Assembly (NCBI GenBank): GCA_036265815.1
Contig: DATAOI010000024.1
Coordinates: 1 to 57,026 of the forward strand
Source: Gemmatimonadales bacterium
GTDB lineage: Bacteria > Gemmatimonadota > Gemmatimonadetes > Gemmatimonadales > GWC2-71-9
DNA: 57,026 nt
Direction: 5' to 3'
Part shown: positions 2,629-49,427 of the stretch, piece by piece
Layout of the letters: every line of letters starts with the position of its first letter
Numbering within the stretch: position 1 is the first letter of the stretch
Translations under genes and position numbers: made by a program
The notes under the pieces: model-generated
The model's input: the letters and a program-made list of their open reading frames with translations, nothing else
Databases searched by the model: none
What the model was told of the DNA's origin: nothing

Positions 2629-2783
2629 GGCCGTTCCTGGTCCTGCGGCACACAGCCTCGGCTGCCAGGTGAGATTCCGGTGATTTCGGCGTGATTCGGT
2701 CGGGCTATCGTGGGCTCATCGAAAACGGGGGTGGCGCCGGGAGGATGACCACCGCAACCGATGAACCGAGCAAGGAGTCCACG

Positions 2784-2885
2784 ATGCGCCCACTCTACGC
2801 ACCCAGCACCATGCCGCTGCCGCCGGCGCCGGATCCTCTGCTGGTCTTCATCCGCCAGGCCCAGCTCGAGCTGGTCTATAAGTAG
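2784..2885 (+). CDS. Small peptide (33 aa), member of a repeated family in this window
   Basis: This is a 33-codon ORF with a strong ribosome binding site (AAGGAG at 2772-2777, six bases before ATG). The peptide has a proline-rich first half and a C-terminal motif DPLLVFIRQAQLELVY. A second ORF at 19925-20044 on the other strand encodes DPGPLLLFIQQAQLALVY, also behind an AGGAGG site. The shared pattern is an N-terminal R-x-L-[YF]-x-P-S, a proline-rich linker, then P-L-L-x-F-I-x-Q-A-Q-L-x-L-V-Y close to the end. The two nucleotide sequences differ, so the match is at protein level. No known family is recognised. An in-frame ATG at 2691 exists but has no ribosome binding site. Function unknown. 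Confidence 0.68.
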   Translation: MRPLYAPSTMPLPPAPDPLLVFIRQAQLELVYK

Positions 2886-2935: not shown

Positions 2936-3157
2936 TCAGAGCGGGCGGCGCCCCTCGCGGATAGCATCCAGGATCTCGTCCCGGCCGAGACGCGCGCCGA
3001 TGGCCGGCACGTCCAGGGGCGAGCCCGAAGACACCTCCGGCCGCACCACGAACACCTGCCCGTCCTTGCGCCTGATCCGCACCGCCCCTTCCCGCCGCGC
3101 GCGCTCCAGCAATGACGCCAGCCGCTGCCGAGCCTCGGAATAGGTGAACTCCTTCAT
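2936..3157 (-). CDS. Phd/YefM-type antitoxin
   Basis: The 73-residue protein has a Phd/YefM-like N-terminal domain (TYSEARQRLASLLERARR, then a beta strand VRIRRKDGQVFVV), typically a DNA-binding dimer that also binds its cognate toxin through a C-terminal tail. The tail here (IGARLGRDEILDAIREGR) is amphipathic, as expected for toxin wrapping. Its ATG overlaps the stop of the PIN-domain toxin gene as ATGA. It therefore lies downstream of the toxin, the reverse of the usual antitoxin-first order. Confidence 0.8.
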   Translation of the reverse strand: MKEFTYSEARQRLASLLERARREGAVRIRRKDGQVFVVRPEVSSGSPLDVPAIGARLGRDEILDAIREGRRPL

Positions 3158-3549
3158 CCCACCTCCAGCACCTGTACGCCCGCCTCCTGTGCCGCCCGCC
3201 CGAGCCGCGCATCCAGCGTCAGCAGGGGTGCCCGCTGACGCCGGGCGCAGGCCATGAGATAGGCGTCGTAGGCGTAGAGCCCGAACCGATCCGCCAGCTC
3301 CAGCGCGGCGCCCAGCTCGACCTCCACCACCCGGATCGGGATCGCGGCGTACGCGGCGAGCGCGGCCTGGACCTCCGCCAGCTTCAGCCGGCGGCGCTTG
3401 AGCAAGGCCGAGAACGCGGTCCCGATCTCCCAGTGCACCGAGCCCGGCGCGAGCAGCTCGGCTCCCTGAGTTCGGGCGATGAGGCGGTCCCGCGCCGTCT
3501 CTCCCGTGAGCACGGCAATCAGCACGGACGTGTCGACGACGAGCTCCAC
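3154..3549 (-). CDS. vapC: PIN-domain ribonuclease toxin, VapC-like
   Basis: The 131-residue protein is of normal VapC length. PIN-domain acidic residues are visible: the N-terminal VVDTSVLIAVL, a central HWEIG, and the YDAYLMACA and LLTLDARL segments near the C-terminus. VapC toxins are Mg-dependent RNases that cleave tRNA or rRNA. I chose the GTG at 3549 because it has AGGGAG five bases upstream; the ATG at 3606 would add a tail that runs across a palindromic operator. The gene precedes its antitoxin, with an ATGA overlap. Confidence 0.85.
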   Translation of the reverse strand: MELVVDTSVLIAVLTGETARDRLIARTQGAELLAPGSVHWEIGTAFSALLKRRRLKLAEVQAALAAYAAIPIRVVEVELGAALELADRFGLYAYDAYLMACARRQRAPLLTLDARLGRAAQEAGVQVLEVG

Positions 3550-12574: not shown

Positions 12575-12745
12575 GGTCAGTGAGGTGGCGCGAGGGCGAG
12601 GTCTCCTGGCTTCGGGCCCTCGCTCGCCTTCCCGGTTTCCCAGTGGCGTCTCAAGCGAGGTGGACTGCTGCCCGTTACAGTGGCGGGGCCGCGCCGGATT
12701 CACACCGGCTTCCGAGTATCGCTGCTCGCGTAGAACTGTTGTCGA
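12575..12745 (-). promoter_or_regulatory. Cobalamin (AdoCbl) riboswitch
   Basis: On the minus strand the conserved elements occur in order: GGTGTGAATCCGGCGC (12691-12706), the B12-box region GCCACTGTAACGGG (12671-12684) and, after a variable arm, CCAGGAGACCTC (around 12598-12609). This is the class I cobalamin riboswitch pattern, and it lies directly upstream of the btuF-btuB unit. Boundaries are approximate. Confidence 0.93.
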
Positions 12746-14666: not shown

Positions 14667-16667
14667 ATGCCCTCGCGCCTGGGACAGAAGATCTTCCTCG
14701 GCACGGCGCTGGTGGTGGTCGCCGTGCTCGGCGCGGCTCTGCTGGTGACCAAGCGCCAGGCCGACAGCGCTGCCGACGCCGCCTCCACTCGCGCCCTCCA
14801 GGCCACCCAATCGGCCATCGGCGATGCTCTCGCCGGCCGCAGCCAAACCCTGCGGCGGCTGGCCGCCGCGCTGGCGCAGGTGCCAGCCTACGTGTCCCGC
14901 ATCGGCGAATCGCTCCGCGCCGGCACCCGGGCCAACCTGCTCGACCAGGCCGATGAGCTCCGGGCCCAGACCGGCGCCGACTGGGTGCTCATCACCGACG
15001 GCGCCGGCGTGCTCCAGGCATGGACCGCCAACCGGAGCGCGTTCGACGAAGACTTCTCTCGGGGGGCGCTGATCGGCCGGGCGCTCGAGGGGCAGACCAC
15101 CGAGGGCGTCTGGATCGAGCCGGGCCAGGCGGGCGACGAGCTCTACCAGGCGGTCGGCGTGCCGGTAGTCGATCCGGGGAGCGCCCGCCCCTTCGGGGTG
15201 GTCGTCGCGGCGCTTCGGATCGACAGCGCCTTTGCCCGGCAGCTCCGCCGTCACACCAACTCCGAGATCGTCTTCTTCGCCCGCGACACGCTCGGCGTGC
15301 CGCAGGTGATCCTGTCGACGCTCCCCCTGGACCAGGTCCAGGCCGCCGTCCGCGCGATCCCGGCCGACAGCGCCGCGCGCGAGTCCGTCACCCGCTTTCG
15401 GCTCACCACCCGGGGCACCCGATACGAGGGAGCCACCGGGCTGCTCGCCACGGCGGACGGAGTGCCGATCGGCGGATACGTCGGTCTGCACTCGCGGGAC
15501 GCGGATCTCGCGGCGTACCATCAGCTCAGCCGCACGATCGGCTGGGCGTTCGTGGTGGGTCTGGTGCTCGCGCTCGGCGTGTCGGTGCTGATGGCGCGGC
15601 AGATCACCCGCCCGGTGAATCGTCTGGTCGAAGTGACCCGAAGAGTGAGCGAGGGGCAGTACACCGGCCGCATCGAGGTTACCAGCCGGGACGAGATCGG
15701 CGAGCTCGCCACCGCCTTTCGCCGGATGGTGGAGGAGCTGCGGGAGAAGGACCGGCTGGTCACCTATCTCCGCACCGGAACGCACCAGATCGAGGACGGC
15801 CCGCGGACCTTCGGCCGGGGCGAAGGGAGGCTGGTGGTCGGGGCCCGGTTCGCCGGGCGCTACGACATTCAGGAAGCGATCGGCGCCGGGGGGATGGGAG
15901 TGGTGTATCGCGCGTTCGACCGCGAGGTCGGCGAGACCGTGGCCATCAAGGCGCTCCGCCCGGAGCTGGACCAGTTCGACCCCACCATGCTCGAGCGGTT
16001 CAAGCAGGAGCTCCGGCTGGCGCGCCGGATCACCCACCGGAACGTGGTGCGGACCTTCGATATCGGCGAGTTGGACGGGGTCTACTACATCACCATGGAG
16101 TTCGTGCGCGGGACCACCGTGGCCACGCTGATCCGGGAGGCCGGCCGGCTGGCGGTCCCGGCGGCGCTCACCATCGGGAAGCAGGTCTGCCGGGCCCTGG
16201 AGGTGGCGCACGAGGAGGGGATCGTCCACCGCGACATCAAGCCGCAGAACCTGCTGGTGGATCCGACCGGGTTCCTCAAGGTGATGGACTTCGGCATCGC
16301 TCGGCTGACCGAGCGGCGGTCGGGCGGCTCGGAGACGCTCACGGCGGCTGGGGTGGTGGTGGGAACGCCGCAGTACATGGCGCCGGAGCAACTGTTCGGC
16401 GAACCGGTGGACCATCGGAGCGACCTCTACGCCACCGGCGCGGTGCTGTTCGAGTGCGTCACGGGCCGGCACGTGTTCGAGGCGCCGACCCCGATGGCGC
16501 TCCTGGCCCGACACATGAACGACGCGGCGCCGGACCCGATCGACCTGAATCCCGAGATCCCCGCCGCGCTCGCCCACATCATTGCGAAGGCGCTCGAGCG
16601 CCGACCGGAGAACCGCTGGGGGAGCGCCACCGATATGCTTCACGCCCTGGAGCAGGTGGAAGCCTAG
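14667..16667 (+). CDS. Transmembrane sensor Ser/Thr kinase: Cache-like domain, HAMP, kinase
   Basis: The 666-residue protein has TM1 at residues 8-28 and a periplasmic domain of about 260 residues (30-288) with double-Cache-like features (DWVLITDGAGVLQAW, GVVVAALRIDS, IGGYVGL). TM2 is at 291-310, HAMP at about 311-363 (RQITRPVNRLVEVTRRVSEG, SRDEIGELATAFRRM), and a complete kinase domain from about 399 to 660. Kinase residues are present: GAGGMG, Lys428, HRDIKPQN (521-528), DFG (541-543) and an APEQ segment. Most bacterial kinases of this class place the kinase first and the sensor after a transmembrane helix. Here the chemoreceptor/histidine-kinase layout is used with a Ser/Thr output. Eight bases separate it from the cupredoxin gene, so that protein is the likely signal partner. 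Confidence 0.9.
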   Translation: MPSRLGQKIFLGTALVVVAVLGAALLVTKRQADSAADAASTRALQATQSAIGDALAGRSQTLRRLAAALAQVPAYVSRIGESLRAGTRANLLDQADELRAQTGADWVLITDGAGVLQAWTANRSAFDEDFSRGALIGRALEGQTTEGVWIEPGQAGDELYQAVGVPVVDPGSARPFGVVVAALRIDSAFARQLRRHTNSEIVFFARDTLGVPQVILSTLPLDQVQAAVRAIPADSAARESVTRFRLTTRGTRYEGATGLLATADGVPIGGYVGLHSRDADLAAYHQLSRTIGWAFVVGLVLALGVSVLMARQITRPVNRLVEVTRRVSEGQYTGRIEVTSRDEIGELATAFRRMVEELREKDRLVTYLRTGTHQIEDGPRTFGRGEGRLVVGARFAGRYDIQEAIGAGGMGVVYRAFDREVGETVAIKALRPELDQFDPTMLERFKQELRLARRITHRNVVRTFDIGELDGVYYITMEFVRGTTVATLIREAGRLAVPAALTIGKQVCRALEVAHEEGIVHRDIKPQNLLVDPTGFLKVMDFGIARLTERRSGGSETLTAAGVVVGTPQYMAPEQLFGEPVDHRSDLYATGAVLFECVTGRHVFEAPTPMALLARHMNDAAPDPIDLNPEIPAALAHIIAKALERRPENRWGSATDMLHALEQVEA

Positions 16668-19770: not shown

Positions 19771-19812
19771 GATGTCTAGGTATATAATGTCACCCGCATA
19801 CCTAGACGTCAA
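19771..19812 (-). promoter_or_regulatory. padR promoter with overlapping inverted-repeat operator
   Basis: Arms at 19771-19783 (GATGTCTAGGTAT) and 19798-19810 (ATACCTAGACGTC) are complementary at 12 of 13 positions, with a 14-base spacer. On the minus strand TTGACG (19807-19812) and CATTAT (19784-19789) are 17 bases apart, so the repeat overlaps the -35 box and spacer. This fits PadR autorepression. Confidence 0.7.
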
Positions 19813-19924: not shown

Positions 19925-20044
19925 TCAATCCAATCGCTCGCGCCGGTAGACCAGCGCCAGCTGGGCCTGCTGAATGAAGAGCAGGAGTGGCCCCGGATCG
20001 GGGATCTCCGGGATCGAGCTGGGCGTGAAGAGCGATCGGTACAT
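19925..20044 (-). CDS. Small peptide (39 aa), second copy of the 2784 family
   Basis: This 39-codon ORF is preceded by AGGAGG seven bases before the ATG. The peptide starts MYRSLFTPSS and ends LLLFIQQAQLALVYRRERLD. It shares its N-terminal pattern, proline-rich middle and F-I-x-Q-A-Q-L-x-L-V-Y segment with the peptide at 2784-2885. It lies within a long antisense frame (to 21904), but the ribosome binding site and the cross-locus protein match single it out. It is divergent from the secreted TPR gene. No transmembrane or secretion signal is convincing, although the C-terminal helix is amphipathic. Function unknown. Confidence 0.68.
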   Translation of the reverse strand: MYRSLFTPSSIPEIPDPGPLLLFIQQAQLALVYRRERLD

Positions 20045-20137
20045 CTTACGGTCCTCCTGTTGAAGGCTGCACGCCTCGGGCGTTCCATTGGGGTAGCGCA
20101 TGGGAGCCGCGAAAGGTTCCATCGCATCGGAGAGTCT

Positions 20138-21793
20138 ATGCACCCCGTGACTGTGTCGCCGTGCATGCGCGTCACGATTCGGCTCACTACCCTCGTCGCG
20201 CTCGCGTTCGCGCCGGCGGTCTGGGCCCAGGAAGAAGAGGCGCACCAGCACGGGATGGGTCGGCTCGGCCAGGTTCACTTTCCTGTCTCGTGTACCGCCG
20301 AGGCGCAACGCCGGTTCGAGCACGCGATGGCCGTGCTCCACTCGTTCTGGTGGGAGGAGGGCGAGCAGGCGTTCAACGCGGTCATTCAAGCCGATTCCAC
20401 TTGCGCGATGGCCTACTGGGGTCTGGCCGTCAATGCCTGGGGTAATCCATTCGTCGGCGGTCCGGCTGGTGCCGCGCTCCGCCGCGGGGTTGAGGCCGCG
20501 GAGCGCGCCGCCTCGCACCCTGCCCCGACCAGGCGGGAGCAGGGCTTCATCGCGGCGAGCATGGCGCTCTATCGCGACGCCTCCAGCACGTCCAACGCCG
20601 TCCGGCTGCAGGCCTATGCCGACACTATGGCGCGGCTCTATCGGGAGCTCCCGCGGGAGACCGAGGTCGCCATCTACTACGCGCTGGCGCTGCTGGCGAC
20701 GGCTCCTCGCACCGATACGTCGCTGGCGCAGGAGCGGAAGGCCGCGTCCATCCTGGCTCCGCTTTTCGCCCGGTACCCGGACCACCCCGGGCTCGCCCAC
20801 TACACGATTCACGCGACCGACTCGCCCCGGCTGGCCTCCATGGGACTGGATGCTGCCCGCCGCTATGCGCGCATCGCTCCGGCGGTACCACATGCCCAGC
20901 ACATGCCGTCGCACATCTTCGTCCGGCTGGGCCTCTGGGAGGAGACCGTCGCGTCGAACCGGAAGGCCTATGAGGCCGGCGCCAACTACGCCAAGACGTT
21001 GGAGCTCGCAGGCATGACTCCCGAAGAGCTCCACACCCTGGACTACGCCGTCTATGGCTATCTCCAGCTTGGCCAGGACTCGGCCGCACGTGCCGCGGTC
21101 GCCACCGGCCAGCACCTGGTGATCGCACCGGGGAAGGACAATCTGGTGAGCGCCTACAATCGCACCGCGATGGCGGCGCGGATTCTCCTGGAGCGAGGTG
21201 ACTGGCGGGCCGCGGCGGAGTTCCCGGCATCGGGTGCAGCGGACAGCGGAGTGTCGGTGATGCTGCGCCGCTTTACCCGAGCCCTCGGCGCCGCGCGAAG
21301 CGGGCGGCCGGCGACGGCGCGCGTCGAGATCTCCGCGCTCGATTCGCTCGCCACCGCGCTCGCCGCACAGCACGAGCCGTACTGGGCCAGAGTTGCGGCC
21401 ATCAAGCGGGACGTGGCCGACGCCTGGATTCGCTTCGGCCTGGGAGACACGACCGCCGCGCTCGCTCTGGCGCGGGAGGCGGCTGACGGGGAGGACGTCA
21501 CCGGCAAGCACCCGGTGACGCCGGCCGAGCTGCTGCCCGCGCGAGAGCTGCAGGCCGACATGCTCCTTGCCGCGGGTCGGTACGTGGAAGCCGGTGCGGC
21601 CTACCGCGCCACCCTCCAACGTGAGCCCGGCCGGGCGCGAAGCCTGTTCGGTCTCGCGCGCGCGGCCCAGCTTGCGGGTGACCGATCGGCCGCCCGTACA
21701 GCTTACCGGGACTTGCTCAGGCTCATGAGCCGCTCCGACGGCGATCGCCCCGAGCTGGCCACGGCGCGGGAGTTCGTGCGACCCGGCCGATGA
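20138..21793 (+). CDS. Secreted TPR-repeat protein
   Basis: The 551-residue protein has a signal peptide (hydrophobic core LTTLVALAFAPAVWAQ, about residues 16-31) and then His-rich HQHGMGRLGQVHF. Several helical repeats of TPR type follow (EHAMAVLHSFWWEEGEQAF, DSTCAMAYWGLAVNAWG, and C-terminal ALAREAAD, LLAAGRYVEAGAAYRATL, RDLLRLM). I chose the ATG at 20138 because GGAGAG precedes it; an in-frame ATG at 20165 is the alternative. The conserved segments GLAHYTIHATDSP and PHAQHMPSHIFVRLGLWEE are characteristic of a poorly described family of secreted TPR proteins. Its end overlaps the serine hydrolase gene by ATGA. Confidence 0.82.
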   Translation: MHPVTVSPCMRVTIRLTTLVALAFAPAVWAQEEEAHQHGMGRLGQVHFPVSCTAEAQRRFEHAMAVLHSFWWEEGEQAFNAVIQADSTCAMAYWGLAVNAWGNPFVGGPAGAALRRGVEAAERAASHPAPTRREQGFIAASMALYRDASSTSNAVRLQAYADTMARLYRELPRETEVAIYYALALLATAPRTDTSLAQERKAASILAPLFARYPDHPGLAHYTIHATDSPRLASMGLDAARRYARIAPAVPHAQHMPSHIFVRLGLWEETVASNRKAYEAGANYAKTLELAGMTPEELHTLDYAVYGYLQLGQDSAARAAVATGQHLVIAPGKDNLVSAYNRTAMAARILLERGDWRAAAEFPASGAADSGVSVMLRRFTRALGAARSGRPATARVEISALDSLATALAAQHEPYWARVAAIKRDVADAWIRFGLGDTTAALALAREAADGEDVTGKHPVTPAELLPARELQADMLLAAGRYVEAGAAYRATLQREPGRARSLFGLARAAQLAGDRSAARTAYRDLLRLMSRSDGDRPELATAREFVRPGR

Positions 21794-22914
21794 GCTGTCG
21801 CCGAGCCCGGCTGTTCCTATCGGCCCTGGTGGTTGGCTGGGGCATGGTCGGGTGTGCACCCGGCTCGTCGGTACAGGGCGCCGCGCCGCAGAGCCCCGCC
21901 GCATTCCAGTCCACCATCGCCCAAGTGCGCCGTTTCATCCTCGACACCATGCGGGTGCTCGGCGCGCCGGGAGCATCGATCTCGATACGGAAGAATGACC
22001 GCCTGGTGTGGAGCGAAGGTTTCGGCTCGGCAAACCTGGAGCAGCACGTGCCGGTCACGACCCTGACCCGTTTCCGCATCGGGAGCGTGTCCAAGCCGCT
22101 TACCGCCACCGCGCTCGGCCTCCTCAGCGAGCAGGGCCGGCTCGACTGGGACGCGCCGGTGCAGCGCTACGTACCCAGCTTTCCGATGAAGCGCTATCCC
22201 ATCACCGTGCGCCAGGTGGCGGGGCATCTCGCCGGGATTCGACACTATGCCCCCGGTGAGTTCGAGAACCAGAAGCACTACGGCTCGGTCCTGGAGGGTC
22301 TCACGATCTTTCAGAATGACTCACTGCTCTTCGAGCCGGGCACCCGGTATGCCTACTCGAGTTACGGCTGGAACCTGCTGAGTGCCGTCGTCGAGGGGGC
22401 ATCCGGGGAGCCGTTTCTCGAGTTCATGGCGCGCCACGTGTTCGGGCCTGCCGGGATGACCCATACCATCGCCGACCACCCGGACAGCATCATCCCGGAT
22501 CGGGCCCGGTTCTACACCCGGTCGGACTCGGTGGGTCCCGTGCTCAACGCGCCTTACGTCGACAACAGCTACAAGTGGGCCGGCGGCGGTTTCCTTTCGA
22601 CCACTGAGGATCTCGCGCTCTTCGCCGAGCGACTCCTGGGCGGGCGCCTCCTCCAACCCGCCACGGTCACACTGCTCTGGACCACCCAGCACACCTCCGA
22701 CGGCAAGGCTACCGGATACGGTATCGGCTGGAGCGTAACCCTGGACGATCACGGCCGGCGGCGAATCTCCCATGCGGGCGGCTCGGTCGGGGGCACCGCC
22801 AACCTGCTCATCTATCCGGCGGAGCATCTGATTGTGGCGCTACTGGTGAACAGCGACCGCACCTTCGTCGACGCGGTGGGCCGGTATGCGGAGCCGTTCC
22901 TGGCGACGAGGTAG
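21790..22914 (+). CDS. Serine hydrolase of the class C beta-lactamase/PBP4-like family, lipoprotein
   Basis: The 374-residue protein has a lipoprotein signal (GWGMVGC, Cys at about residue 22). The catalytic S-x-x-K is seen in RIGSVSKPLTATALGLL, a YSS segment takes the place of the usual Y-x-N (YAYSSYGWNLL), and a third motif H-A-G-G follows (ISHAGGSVGGTANLL). These place it in the beta-lactamase-related family (Pfam Beta-lactamase), whose members include DD-peptidases and esterases as well as lactamases. True beta-lactamase activity cannot be inferred. It is translationally coupled to the secreted TPR gene. Confidence 0.9.
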   Translation: MSCRRARLFLSALVVGWGMVGCAPGSSVQGAAPQSPAAFQSTIAQVRRFILDTMRVLGAPGASISIRKNDRLVWSEGFGSANLEQHVPVTTLTRFRIGSVSKPLTATALGLLSEQGRLDWDAPVQRYVPSFPMKRYPITVRQVAGHLAGIRHYAPGEFENQKHYGSVLEGLTIFQNDSLLFEPGTRYAYSSYGWNLLSAVVEGASGEPFLEFMARHVFGPAGMTHTIADHPDSIIPDRARFYTRSDSVGPVLNAPYVDNSYKWAGGGFLSTTEDLALFAERLLGGRLLQPATVTLLWTTQHTSDGKATGYGIGWSVTLDDHGRRRISHAGGSVGGTANLLIYPAEHLIVALLVNSDRTFVDAVGRYAEPFLATR

Positions 22915-37301: not shown

Positions 37302-37876
37302 GCGAGACCCGTACGGAACCCTTGTTCGTCGCCAAGCGGCGCTTCGATCCTGGCGCGGGCGAGCGCTGGATGCGCTACATCGCCTGGTCCGGACTCACTC
37401 AGCTTTCCGAGGTCGTGTCACTCGACGAGATCCTCTGCCCCACCGTGCCGGAGACGCTCACCGCGGCGGACTGGGAGCACAACGTCCATGCTGACTATCA
37501 GACCTCGTACTTCCGCTCGCTGCCTTATCTGCGCCAGCGGGTCGCGGGTGAACCGGACCTCAACCTCCTGGCCGTGCTCCAGAACCCATCGGCCGCAGAG
37601 CTCGAGCGCACCCTCCTGCCCGGTTTTCGATTCGTCGGATTCGATCTGCTCGATGTTCACGGCGATGTAAGCGCGCTGACCAACTGCGGAGGCTACGACG
37701 AGCTGTTCGCGGGAGGGGAGCTTTCGGATCAAGGGCTGCTGTCGGACCTGGAGCGAGCCTACGAGATTCAACGCGGGCTGCGGGCGCTGATTCCGCAATC
37801 ACACGCGGACTGTGATGTGTGGGGGGTATGGAGACAGGGTGAGGCAAGGTGGGGCAAGGTGGGGCAGGGTGACTGA
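37298..37876 (+). CDS. Protein of unknown function with a probable CTG start
   Basis: About 192 residues if translation starts at the CTG at 37298, which has GAGGAGG seven bases upstream and overlaps the preceding stop as CTGA. The alternative TTG at 37322 has no ribosome binding site. No other start is possible because an in-frame stop lies at 37283. The protein is soluble, acidic and Trp/Tyr-containing (YIAWSGLTQLSEVVSLDEIL, DYQTSYFRSLPYLRQRV). I do not recognise the family. The last 13 or so residues are encoded by the left arm of a large inverted repeat, which may have replaced the original C-terminus. Confidence 0.7.
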   Translation: MSETRTEPLFVAKRRFDPGAGERWMRYIAWSGLTQLSEVVSLDEILCPTVPETLTAADWEHNVHADYQTSYFRSLPYLRQRVAGEPDLNLLAVLQNPSAAELERTLLPGFRFVGFDLLDVHGDVSALTNCGGYDELFAGGELSDQGLLSDLERAYEIQRGLRALIPQSHADCDVWGVWRQGEARWGKVGQGD

Positions 37877-37930
37877 GGCGACGGCATTTCCCCTGCCTCA
37901 CCCTGCCCCACCTTGCCTCACCCTGTCACC
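37833..37930. repeat. Large hairpin built of 10-bp units, locus A
   Basis: The left arm (37833-37872) contains tandem units of the form GGTGRGGCAR, and the right arm (from 37894) contains the complementary CCYTGCCYCA units. Positions 37833-37856 and 37904-37927 are perfectly complementary over 24 bp. The right arm enters the stop codon of the minus-strand DUF4384 gene, and the left arm encodes the end of the plus-strand gene. A related structure is at 38658-38764. Confidence 0.85.
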
Positions 37931-38585
37931 TTCTCTCACCTGCCCGCCGCACCGGCTGGACCACTATGATCCGCCTGGTGACCAGCGGCGAGGGGTATCC
38001 CCACCAGGCGCTGTAGCCTCCCCACCCAGGCCACCCGTAGGGGTGGTATGGGTACAGTACGCGCACATAGTGCGGCGCCGAGACCGTGTAGACGGCGAGG
38101 TCGTAGTCGAAATGCGCGCTGGGCGCCCGCATGTCGTCGACGATACTCATGAGCTGGGCCTCGGCGTCATCCGAGCGCTGCCCTTCTGCCGAGAGTGCAT
38201 CCAGGTCCCATCGTCCGTCCTTCACGTAGCGGTCGAAGGTAAACGGCGTCTTCGACCAGGCCGCGAGCACGGTGCCCTGCCCGGAGGTACCTTCGGCCAC
38301 GAACGCCTCGCGGTCACCGCGACCCTTCAGTTCTACCTTCTTCCCGCCACTCACGTGCTGGTCTCCGTCGGGATCGACTGGCGAAAGTACCCGCACCTGT
38401 CCATTCAGGCCCGCTCGCAGCACGACCATATATCCGCTCTCGGCCGCGCGGGCGTACACCTTGGCACGGTCACCGTAGGCGAAGTCGCCGGCGGAGCTGT
38501 ACCAGACACGAATCGGGGGGTCCTGCTTCGCGGACGGGGAGACGAGTCCTGCAGTCGAGGCCAGCAACAACAGTGATGTCAGCAT
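37926..38585 (-). CDS. Exported DUF4384 domain protein
   Basis: The 219-residue protein has a signal peptide (MLTSLLLLASTAGLVSPSA). A DUF4384-like beta domain follows (PIRVWYSSAGDFAYGDRAKV, YMVVLRAGLNGQVRVLSP, KKVELKGRGDREAFVAEG). The C-terminal third is rich in Tyr, Trp, Pro and Gly (YPYHPYGWPGWGGYSAWWGY) and ends in a basic tail. I chose the ATG at 38585 because GGAG lies upstream. The longer frame to 38741 runs through the neighbouring repeat. Function unknown; an envelope role is likely. Large hairpins lie on both sides. Confidence 0.8.
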   Translation of the reverse strand: MLTSLLLLASTAGLVSPSAKQDPPIRVWYSSAGDFAYGDRAKVYARAAESGYMVVLRAGLNGQVRVLSPVDPDGDQHVSGGKKVELKGRGDREAFVAEGTSGQGTVLAAWSKTPFTFDRYVKDGRWDLDALSAEGQRSDDAEAQLMSIVDDMRAPSAHFDYDLAVYTVSAPHYVRVLYPYHPYGWPGWGGYSAWWGYPSPLVTRRIIVVQPVRRAGERR

Positions 38586-38657
38586 ATGACGCTCCAGCAA
38601 CTCCATTCGATTGTGTATCGGGGGTACACCACGGAGCTGGGGAACGTTGGGGGACGG

Positions 38658-38764
38658 AAGGTGGGGCAAGGTGAGGCAAGGTGGGGCAGGGTGACGGGCC
38701 CCTTGCCGCACCTTGCCCCACCCTGCCTCACCCTGCCTCACCCTGCCTCACCTTGCCCCACCTT
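38658..38764. repeat. Large hairpin built of 10-bp units, locus B
   Basis: The left arm has three GGTGRGGCAR units, and the right arm has six tandem units of the form CCYTGCCNCA (38701-38760). Positions 38658-38678 and 38744-38764 are perfectly complementary over 21 bp. The right arm ends exactly at the stop codon of the minus-strand gene 38765-39862. The unit sequence matches locus A. Confidence 0.85.
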
Positions 38765-39862
38765 CTAAAAGCTGACCTTCAGAATCCTCCCCTCCGTCCC
38801 CACCAGCCACCCCGCCTTGTGCCCGGCGAACGCGACCGCCCAGAAGTCGTGGACGCCGGGCAGAGTGGACCAGGACGCGCCTTCGTCGGGAGACCAGGCG
38901 GCGCCGGCAGGTCCGGTAGCCACCACCGTCCGCTGGCCGAAGTCGGGGACGTAGCTCAGTCCATAGACCGCGCCGGGAAACGGCGTGCCCGCGGCCAGCG
39001 TCCAGGTCTTTCCACCATCCTTCGACACCGCCACGTTGTCGGACAGAGCGTTCGGCGCGCCCAGGTCGCCGCCGGCAACGATCCCGCGGAATGGATCGCG
39101 GAATGCAATGCTGAAACCGCCGGATCCCGGGGTCCCTTGCACGATGGGCGTATCGTACGCGGCCCAGCTATCGCCGCCATCGGTGGTAGCGAGGACGCGC
39201 GACTTGGTCGCGCCACCGGTCACGATCCACGCCCGCTTGCCACCCTGTGCGGCGACGCAGGTCCCGCTCGAGGCGAACCCCGCCTCGGCCGGCTGCGCGG
39301 CCGGAAGCCGGTCGCCGATGTCCTGCCAGGTCTCGCCATCCGTGGTGCGGCGCACGGGGAAGCGGCCGTCGACCGCGTCGCTGAACACCAGCGCACGCTT
39401 GGGCGTCCAGAAGGCGAAGCAGTCGTAGAAAGCCAGGGGAATCTGGTTCTGGAACTGGAGGTCCCAGGTGCCCCCGCCGTCTTCCGTCTTGTAGATCCGC
39501 GAATCCGTGCCGTTGCCGATCGATAGCACATAGGCCGCCCGGGCACTGAGGCCTTCGACGTCGCGGAAATCGACGGCCTCTGCCCCCGGCACCACACCGG
39601 CCCGCCAGGTGTTGCCGCCGTCCGTGGTGAGGGTGAAGGTCCCATGGGCGCCCGCAGCCCAGGCCACCCGTGCATTGACGGGGCTGATCGCCACCAGCTG
39701 GTTGGTCGTGCCGCTCTGCTGCGGCGTGAGGGTAGGACCGCCCTTGGCCTTCTTAGCAGCCACGAGCGAGTCGGGAGAGGGATCGGAGGCATCGGAACAG
39801 GCAACGGTGACGCCGCCAGTCAGCCCGGCCACCGCGAGGGACAGCGAAAGGGAGCGTAGCAT
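38765..39862 (-). CDS. BNR/YCF48-like beta-propeller lipoprotein
   Basis: The 365-residue protein has a lipoprotein signal (lipobox VTVAC). At least five Asp-box-like repeats follow (TTDGGNTW, TEDGGGTW, TTDGETW, TTDGGDSW, SKDGGKTW, and a degenerate SPDEGASW), typical of sialidase-like or Ycf48/HCF136-like propellers. No glycosidase catalytic residues are evident, so a binding or assembly role is more likely. I chose the ATG at 39862 because it is preceded by GGAGACC. Confidence 0.85.
   Translation of the reverse strand: MLRSLSLSLAVAGLTGGVTVACSDASDPSPDSLVAAKKAKGGPTLTPQQSGTTNQLVAISPVNARVAWAAGAHGTFTLTTDGGNTWRAGVVPGAEAVDFRDVEGLSARAAYVLSIGNGTDSRIYKTEDGGGTWDLQFQNQIPLAFYDCFAFWTPKRALVFSDAVDGRFPVRRTTDGETWQDIGDRLPAAQPAEAGFASSGTCVAAQGGKRAWIVTGGATKSRVLATTDGGDSWAAYDTPIVQGTPGSGGFSIAFRDPFRGIVAGGDLGAPNALSDNVAVSKDGGKTWTLAAGTPFPGAVYGLSYVPDFGQRTVVATGPAGAAWSPDEGASWSTLPGVHDFWAVAFAGHKAGWLVGTEGRILKVSF

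Positions 39863-44367: not shown

Positions 44368-49427
<5,060 letters not shown>

Follow-up and report, generated by a model that had tools for sequence, protein, structure and literature searches.

Two short open reading frames (ORFs), lying in inverse orientation within a window of 57,026 nucleotides (the whole stretch of DNA analysed here), raise the question of whether they encode one previously undescribed small protein, whether that protein is made and, if so, what it might do. The first-pass annotation had described them as ORFs of 33 and 39 residues, each with a strong and correctly spaced ribosome binding site, and these particulars hold. Small protein gene 1 (2784..2885, + strand) encodes 33 amino acids (MRPLYAPSTMPLPPAPDPLLVFIRQAQLELVYK) and small protein gene 2 (19925..20044, − strand) encodes 39 (MYRSLFTPSSIPEIPDPGPLLLFIQQAQLALVYRRERLD), both translations being as described. 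Both genes have a start codon and a properly spaced Shine–Dalgarno sequence, which can be read directly from the DNA: AAGGAG at 2772..2777 (+), with a 6-nt spacer to the ATG, for gene 1, and AGGAGG at 20053..20058 (−), with an 8-nt spacer to the ATG, for gene 2. Gene 2 could also be taken as the tail of a 659-residue ORF (19925-21904); we rejected this reading because that ORF is antisense to the gene for a TPR protein and because gene 2 has a ribosome binding site of its own.

Genomic setting of the two genes

Each copy is a short gene of its own within an intergenic gap. The gap of copy 1 is bordered on one side by a membrane-protein gene and on the other by a VapBC-like pair (a weakly Phd-like antitoxin and a PIN-domain toxin, 2936-3549, −) that is directly convergent with gene 1; no same-strand gene is found within 1.3 kb downstream. 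Copy 2 lies between the TPR-protein gene and a PadR gene, 169 nt upstream of the latter and on the same strand. Between copy 2 and PadR there is a separate sigma-70-like promoter site (TTGACG-17-CATTAT, with TG before the −10 element; 19784..19812, −), located within a palindrome read from the sequence (TCTAGGTAT...ATACCTAGA). This palindrome is a likely operator at which the PadR/MacB-like permease operon would be autoregulated. The genes adjoining either copy are SdhB-like, membrane-protein, VapBC-like, PadR, MacB-like permease, TPR-protein and beta-lactamase-like genes, and no conserved neighbour pointing to a partner was seen beside either copy.

Elsewhere, the window contains a cobalamin riboswitch (12601-12713, −; 72 bits) upstream of clustered same-strand genes for periplasmic-binding-protein-like proteins and TonB-dependent receptors, and a TPP riboswitch (46889-46990, −; 59 bits) upstream of thiC (45135-46784, −). 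A membrane sensor Ser/Thr kinase (14667-16667, +) unites a dCache-like sensor, a HAMP domain and a protein kinase domain in one protein; an arrangement of this sort is commoner among histidine kinases. Two arrays of a 10-bp unit (GGGGCAAGGT or its complement), at 37828-37940 and 38650-38775, are each followed by their inverted counterpart; they lie about 800 bp apart on either side of a gene (37926-38585) and could form long hairpins.

The two copies are homologous

The two proteins are 59% identical over 32 residues (BLASTP, 39.7 bits, E = 2e-12), and gene 1, used as a single query against the whole of its own genome, recovered gene 2 at E = 5.4e-7. By comparison, the best pairs of short ORFs in ten Markov-shuffled windows scored 22.3–24.6 bits. 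One comparable pair was obtained from the reversed window, at 38.5 bits, and was traced to two homologous protein-kinase genes, so that scores of this level indicate homology. At the DNA level, an 86-bp stretch (2793..2878, +) is 72% identical to 19947-20032 (−); it falls inside the ORFs, and the limits of similarity coincide with them. Over 160 bp before and 120 bp after the ORFs, the flanks resemble each other no more than shuffled sequences do, and their comparison revealed no shared promoter or untranslated region. The claim of a homologous small-protein pair in unrelated DNA contexts is thus borne out: on the sequence evidence, the two ORFs are paralogous genes of one small protein.

Evidence for translation

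Annotation usually misses genes of fewer than 40 codons, and for an orphan there is no cross-species conservation by which to judge coding. Where a single genome holds two diverged copies, they can serve as an internal coding test, and both copies pass it. With twelve genes of the window as the training set for a codon model, we obtained in-frame scores per codon of 0.28 for gene 1 and 0.29 for gene 2; pieces of true genes score 0.27 ± 0.12 and wrong frames −0.44 ± 0.16. The other forward frames scored −0.54 and −0.65 in gene 1 and −0.37 and −0.40 in gene 2; host codon usage is therefore found in the coding frame only. Since this evidence is separate for each copy, it does not rest on their similarity. 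An unprompted gene call combining the codon model with ribosome binding sites also retains both genes.

The pattern of substitution points the same way. Half of the differences between the genes (15/30) are at third codon positions, with pS of 0.48 and pN of 0.25 for this single pair. Identical residues number 19 of 32, compared with 14.4 ± 1.8 expected if equally many substitutions were randomly placed (P = 0.007, a value that is only modest when all six frames are counted and that concerns two sequences only). Other reading frames of the pair keep fewer residues or contain stops. No shared RNA structure was seen in the copies, the fold z-scores being −0.26 and −2.48 and the shapes different. 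Codon usage, ribosome binding sites and the excess of pS over pN thus make it very probable that both small genes are translated, as the first-pass annotation had proposed.

The family is confined to this genome in the collections searched

A profile built from the two copies found only these two in their own 4.59 Mb genome, the third match having an E-value of 1.7 over 11 positions only; a pattern search allowing three mismatches gave the same result. The profile found no member in any of the collection's 102 genomes from the genus and family or 288 from the order, nor in samples of the class (394 genomes) and phylum (395 genomes). Weak matches in relatives (E down to 5.9e-4) were read singly, and no comparable short gene was among them: the best is antisense to a long ORF that, judged from its translation, reads as an acyl-CoA synthetase, and the others lie inside long ORFs, cover part of the profile only or contain stops. 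In 394 genomes, matches to FIxQAQ[LF] either fall within unrelated long proteins or are not accompanied by the remaining motif. The pattern F[IV]xQAQ[LF]x[LF][VIM]Y occurs six times in 84,980 species genomes, close to the 5–6 occurrences calculated for chance, and each time the remainder of the motif is missing. Searches of phages, plasmids and viral contigs (IMG/VR) found nothing related, the viral pattern matches being judged unrelated. Neither small protein matches an entry in Pfam, NCBIfam, PHROGs or PADLOC, and searches of the PDB by sequence and by fold gave no match. No family in the libraries searched thus corresponds to the small proteins; orphan small-protein families of this sort are common in bacterial genomes.

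Relatives of the same genus have both the gene upstream of copy 1 and the TPR gene that lies beside copy 2, but other sequence follows or precedes these genes, and neither gap contains a counterpart. Between the paralogues, dS is 0.77 (an estimate from few sites, with a wide error); for neighbouring genes, the values between this species and its relatives in the genus are of similar size (0.75–1.87), so the duplication was not a recent event. The distribution then reflects either the loss of both copies in each of the nine relatives sampled, or the acquisition of two copies that had by then diverged, or a gap in the sampling of close relatives. Because the collections may omit records very near the genome of the window, further members may exist in the same species or in those closest to it.

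The first-pass annotation had expected a family with further copies and had regarded their absence from relatives as evidence against its proposal. That absence is what we find, with exactly two members, both in this genome, and the expectation of a wider family is not supported; translation is still backed by the codon evidence, which is independent of it. The family as it appears here is real, lineage-restricted and two-membered. The pair alone settles no open question, but it is a concrete case of very short, lineage-limited proteins arising or arriving and then duplicating.

Peptide architecture and proposed role

The consensus of the two peptides is MxRxL[YF]xPS[ST][MI]PxxPxPxPLLxFIxQAQLxLVY[KR]. 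Its N-terminal half (MxRxL[YF]xPS[ST][MI]PxxPxPxP) is rich in proline, and its C-terminal part (PLLxFIxQAQLxLVY), in which QAQ is invariant, holds the strongest residue conservation. AlphaFold2, run on the two-row alignment, predicts coil for residues 1–17 and a helix for residues 18–38, with block pLDDT values of 97 and 91, in line with the proline-rich middle and C-terminal helix described before. Isolated peptides are often predicted to be helical, and a predicted helix is no proof of a partner. The helix is not amphipathic, its hydrophobic moment (0.08–0.16) lying below that of its own shuffles. The hydrophobic stretch spans about 15 residues with the polar QAQ in its middle, and the overall charge is near 0. 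A helix that is hydrophobic all round and carries an invariant QAQ is unlikely to lie on a surface as an amphipathic helix, and it is short for a membrane span. These features suggest that the helix may be buried in a partner or a bundle.

We propose that the two genes form a lineage-restricted pair whose products act as partner-binding subunits, with a regulatory or stabilising role, and we assign this statement as a whole a probability of about 0.5. The product of each copy would probably be a peptide, soluble or at the membrane edge, composed of an extended proline-rich N-terminal half and a single predicted helix. The hydrophobic helix, with its invariant pair of glutamines, would most likely pack into a partner protein or a membrane helix bundle, and the small protein might thereby serve as a regulatory or stabilising subunit of that partner. 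We infer this partner-binding or membrane-edge role as simply the best of the functional guesses that remain. The pair might even represent a new class of small regulatory subunits, in which a proline-rich arm and a Gln-containing hydrophobic helix dock on a specific host protein, occurring as two diverged copies and only in this lineage, in unsampled relatives or in mobile elements; we regard this broader idea as doubtful.

Other explanations were weighed against the same features. The peptides could be precursors of a secreted signal or of a RiPP, cut or modified and then exported, a guess made in the first-pass annotation that we now consider unlikely. Size and duplication would suit precursor genes, but there is no signal peptide and no double-Gly motif, and both ends of the peptide are conserved, rather than a leader followed by a variable core. 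Moreover, no lanthionine, YcaO, lasso or radical-SAM RiPP enzyme was found among the genes scanned (the only radical-SAM match among them being ThiC), and no RiPP modification or export gene is present among the annotated neighbours of either copy.

A membrane-acting small toxin of type I-like character, or another selfish toxic peptide, is similarly improbable. A short hydrophobic helix, two dispersed copies and a patchy distribution could be so explained; against this, the hydrophobic stretch, interrupted by its central polar residues, is shorter than a membrane span usually requires, the peptides carry almost no overall charge, and a scan for the sigma-70 consensus found nothing promoter-like on the antisense strand of either copy.

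It is quite unlikely that the ORFs encode leader peptides (attenuator or arrest peptides), in which stalling of the ribosome on the proline-rich stretch would switch a downstream gene. The peptides are short, contain proline-rich runs (PPAPDP; PDPGP) and have good ribosome binding sites, and the position of copy 2 ahead of PadR on the same strand would fit. However, PadR has a promoter-like site of its own, and copy 1 faces convergent VapBC-like genes; a cotranscribed same-strand gene directly downstream is not evident for either copy. The untranslated regions of the two copies have nothing in common, and it is the C-terminal helix, rather than the prolines, that shows the highest conservation.

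A noncoding repeat, a recombination site or a chance similarity is very unlikely. The copies do lie as an inverted pair separated by 17 kb, have no relatives found anywhere and include one with low fold energy; but chance pairs reach at most 24.6 bits, both copies look coding in one and the same frame by codon usage, reading frame and substitution pattern, and they have no common RNA fold.

Comparison with known systems

Bacterial type I toxins such as TisB, Hok and Ibs are small, have one hydrophobic helix and occur in several copies, and the present proteins resemble them in all three respects. They differ in having no clear transmembrane span, no antisense promoter that we could see and a long proline-rich half. 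Leader and arrest peptides of the SecM and TnaC kind are likewise short ORFs with good ribosome binding sites and prolines, as are the genes described here; unlike them, copy 1 has no regulated gene downstream, and what is conserved is a helix and not a stall site. A further parallel is provided by the global microbial smORF catalogue (GMSC), in which 39.7% of the analysed families are species-specific, most without a Pfam domain (PMC11364881). Like those species-specific families, the pair is short, carries a coding signature, has no Pfam domain and is distributed in one species (PMC11364881). Unlike a single orphan smORF, it comprises two diverged paralogues in one genome, and this is what allows its coding nature to be tested.
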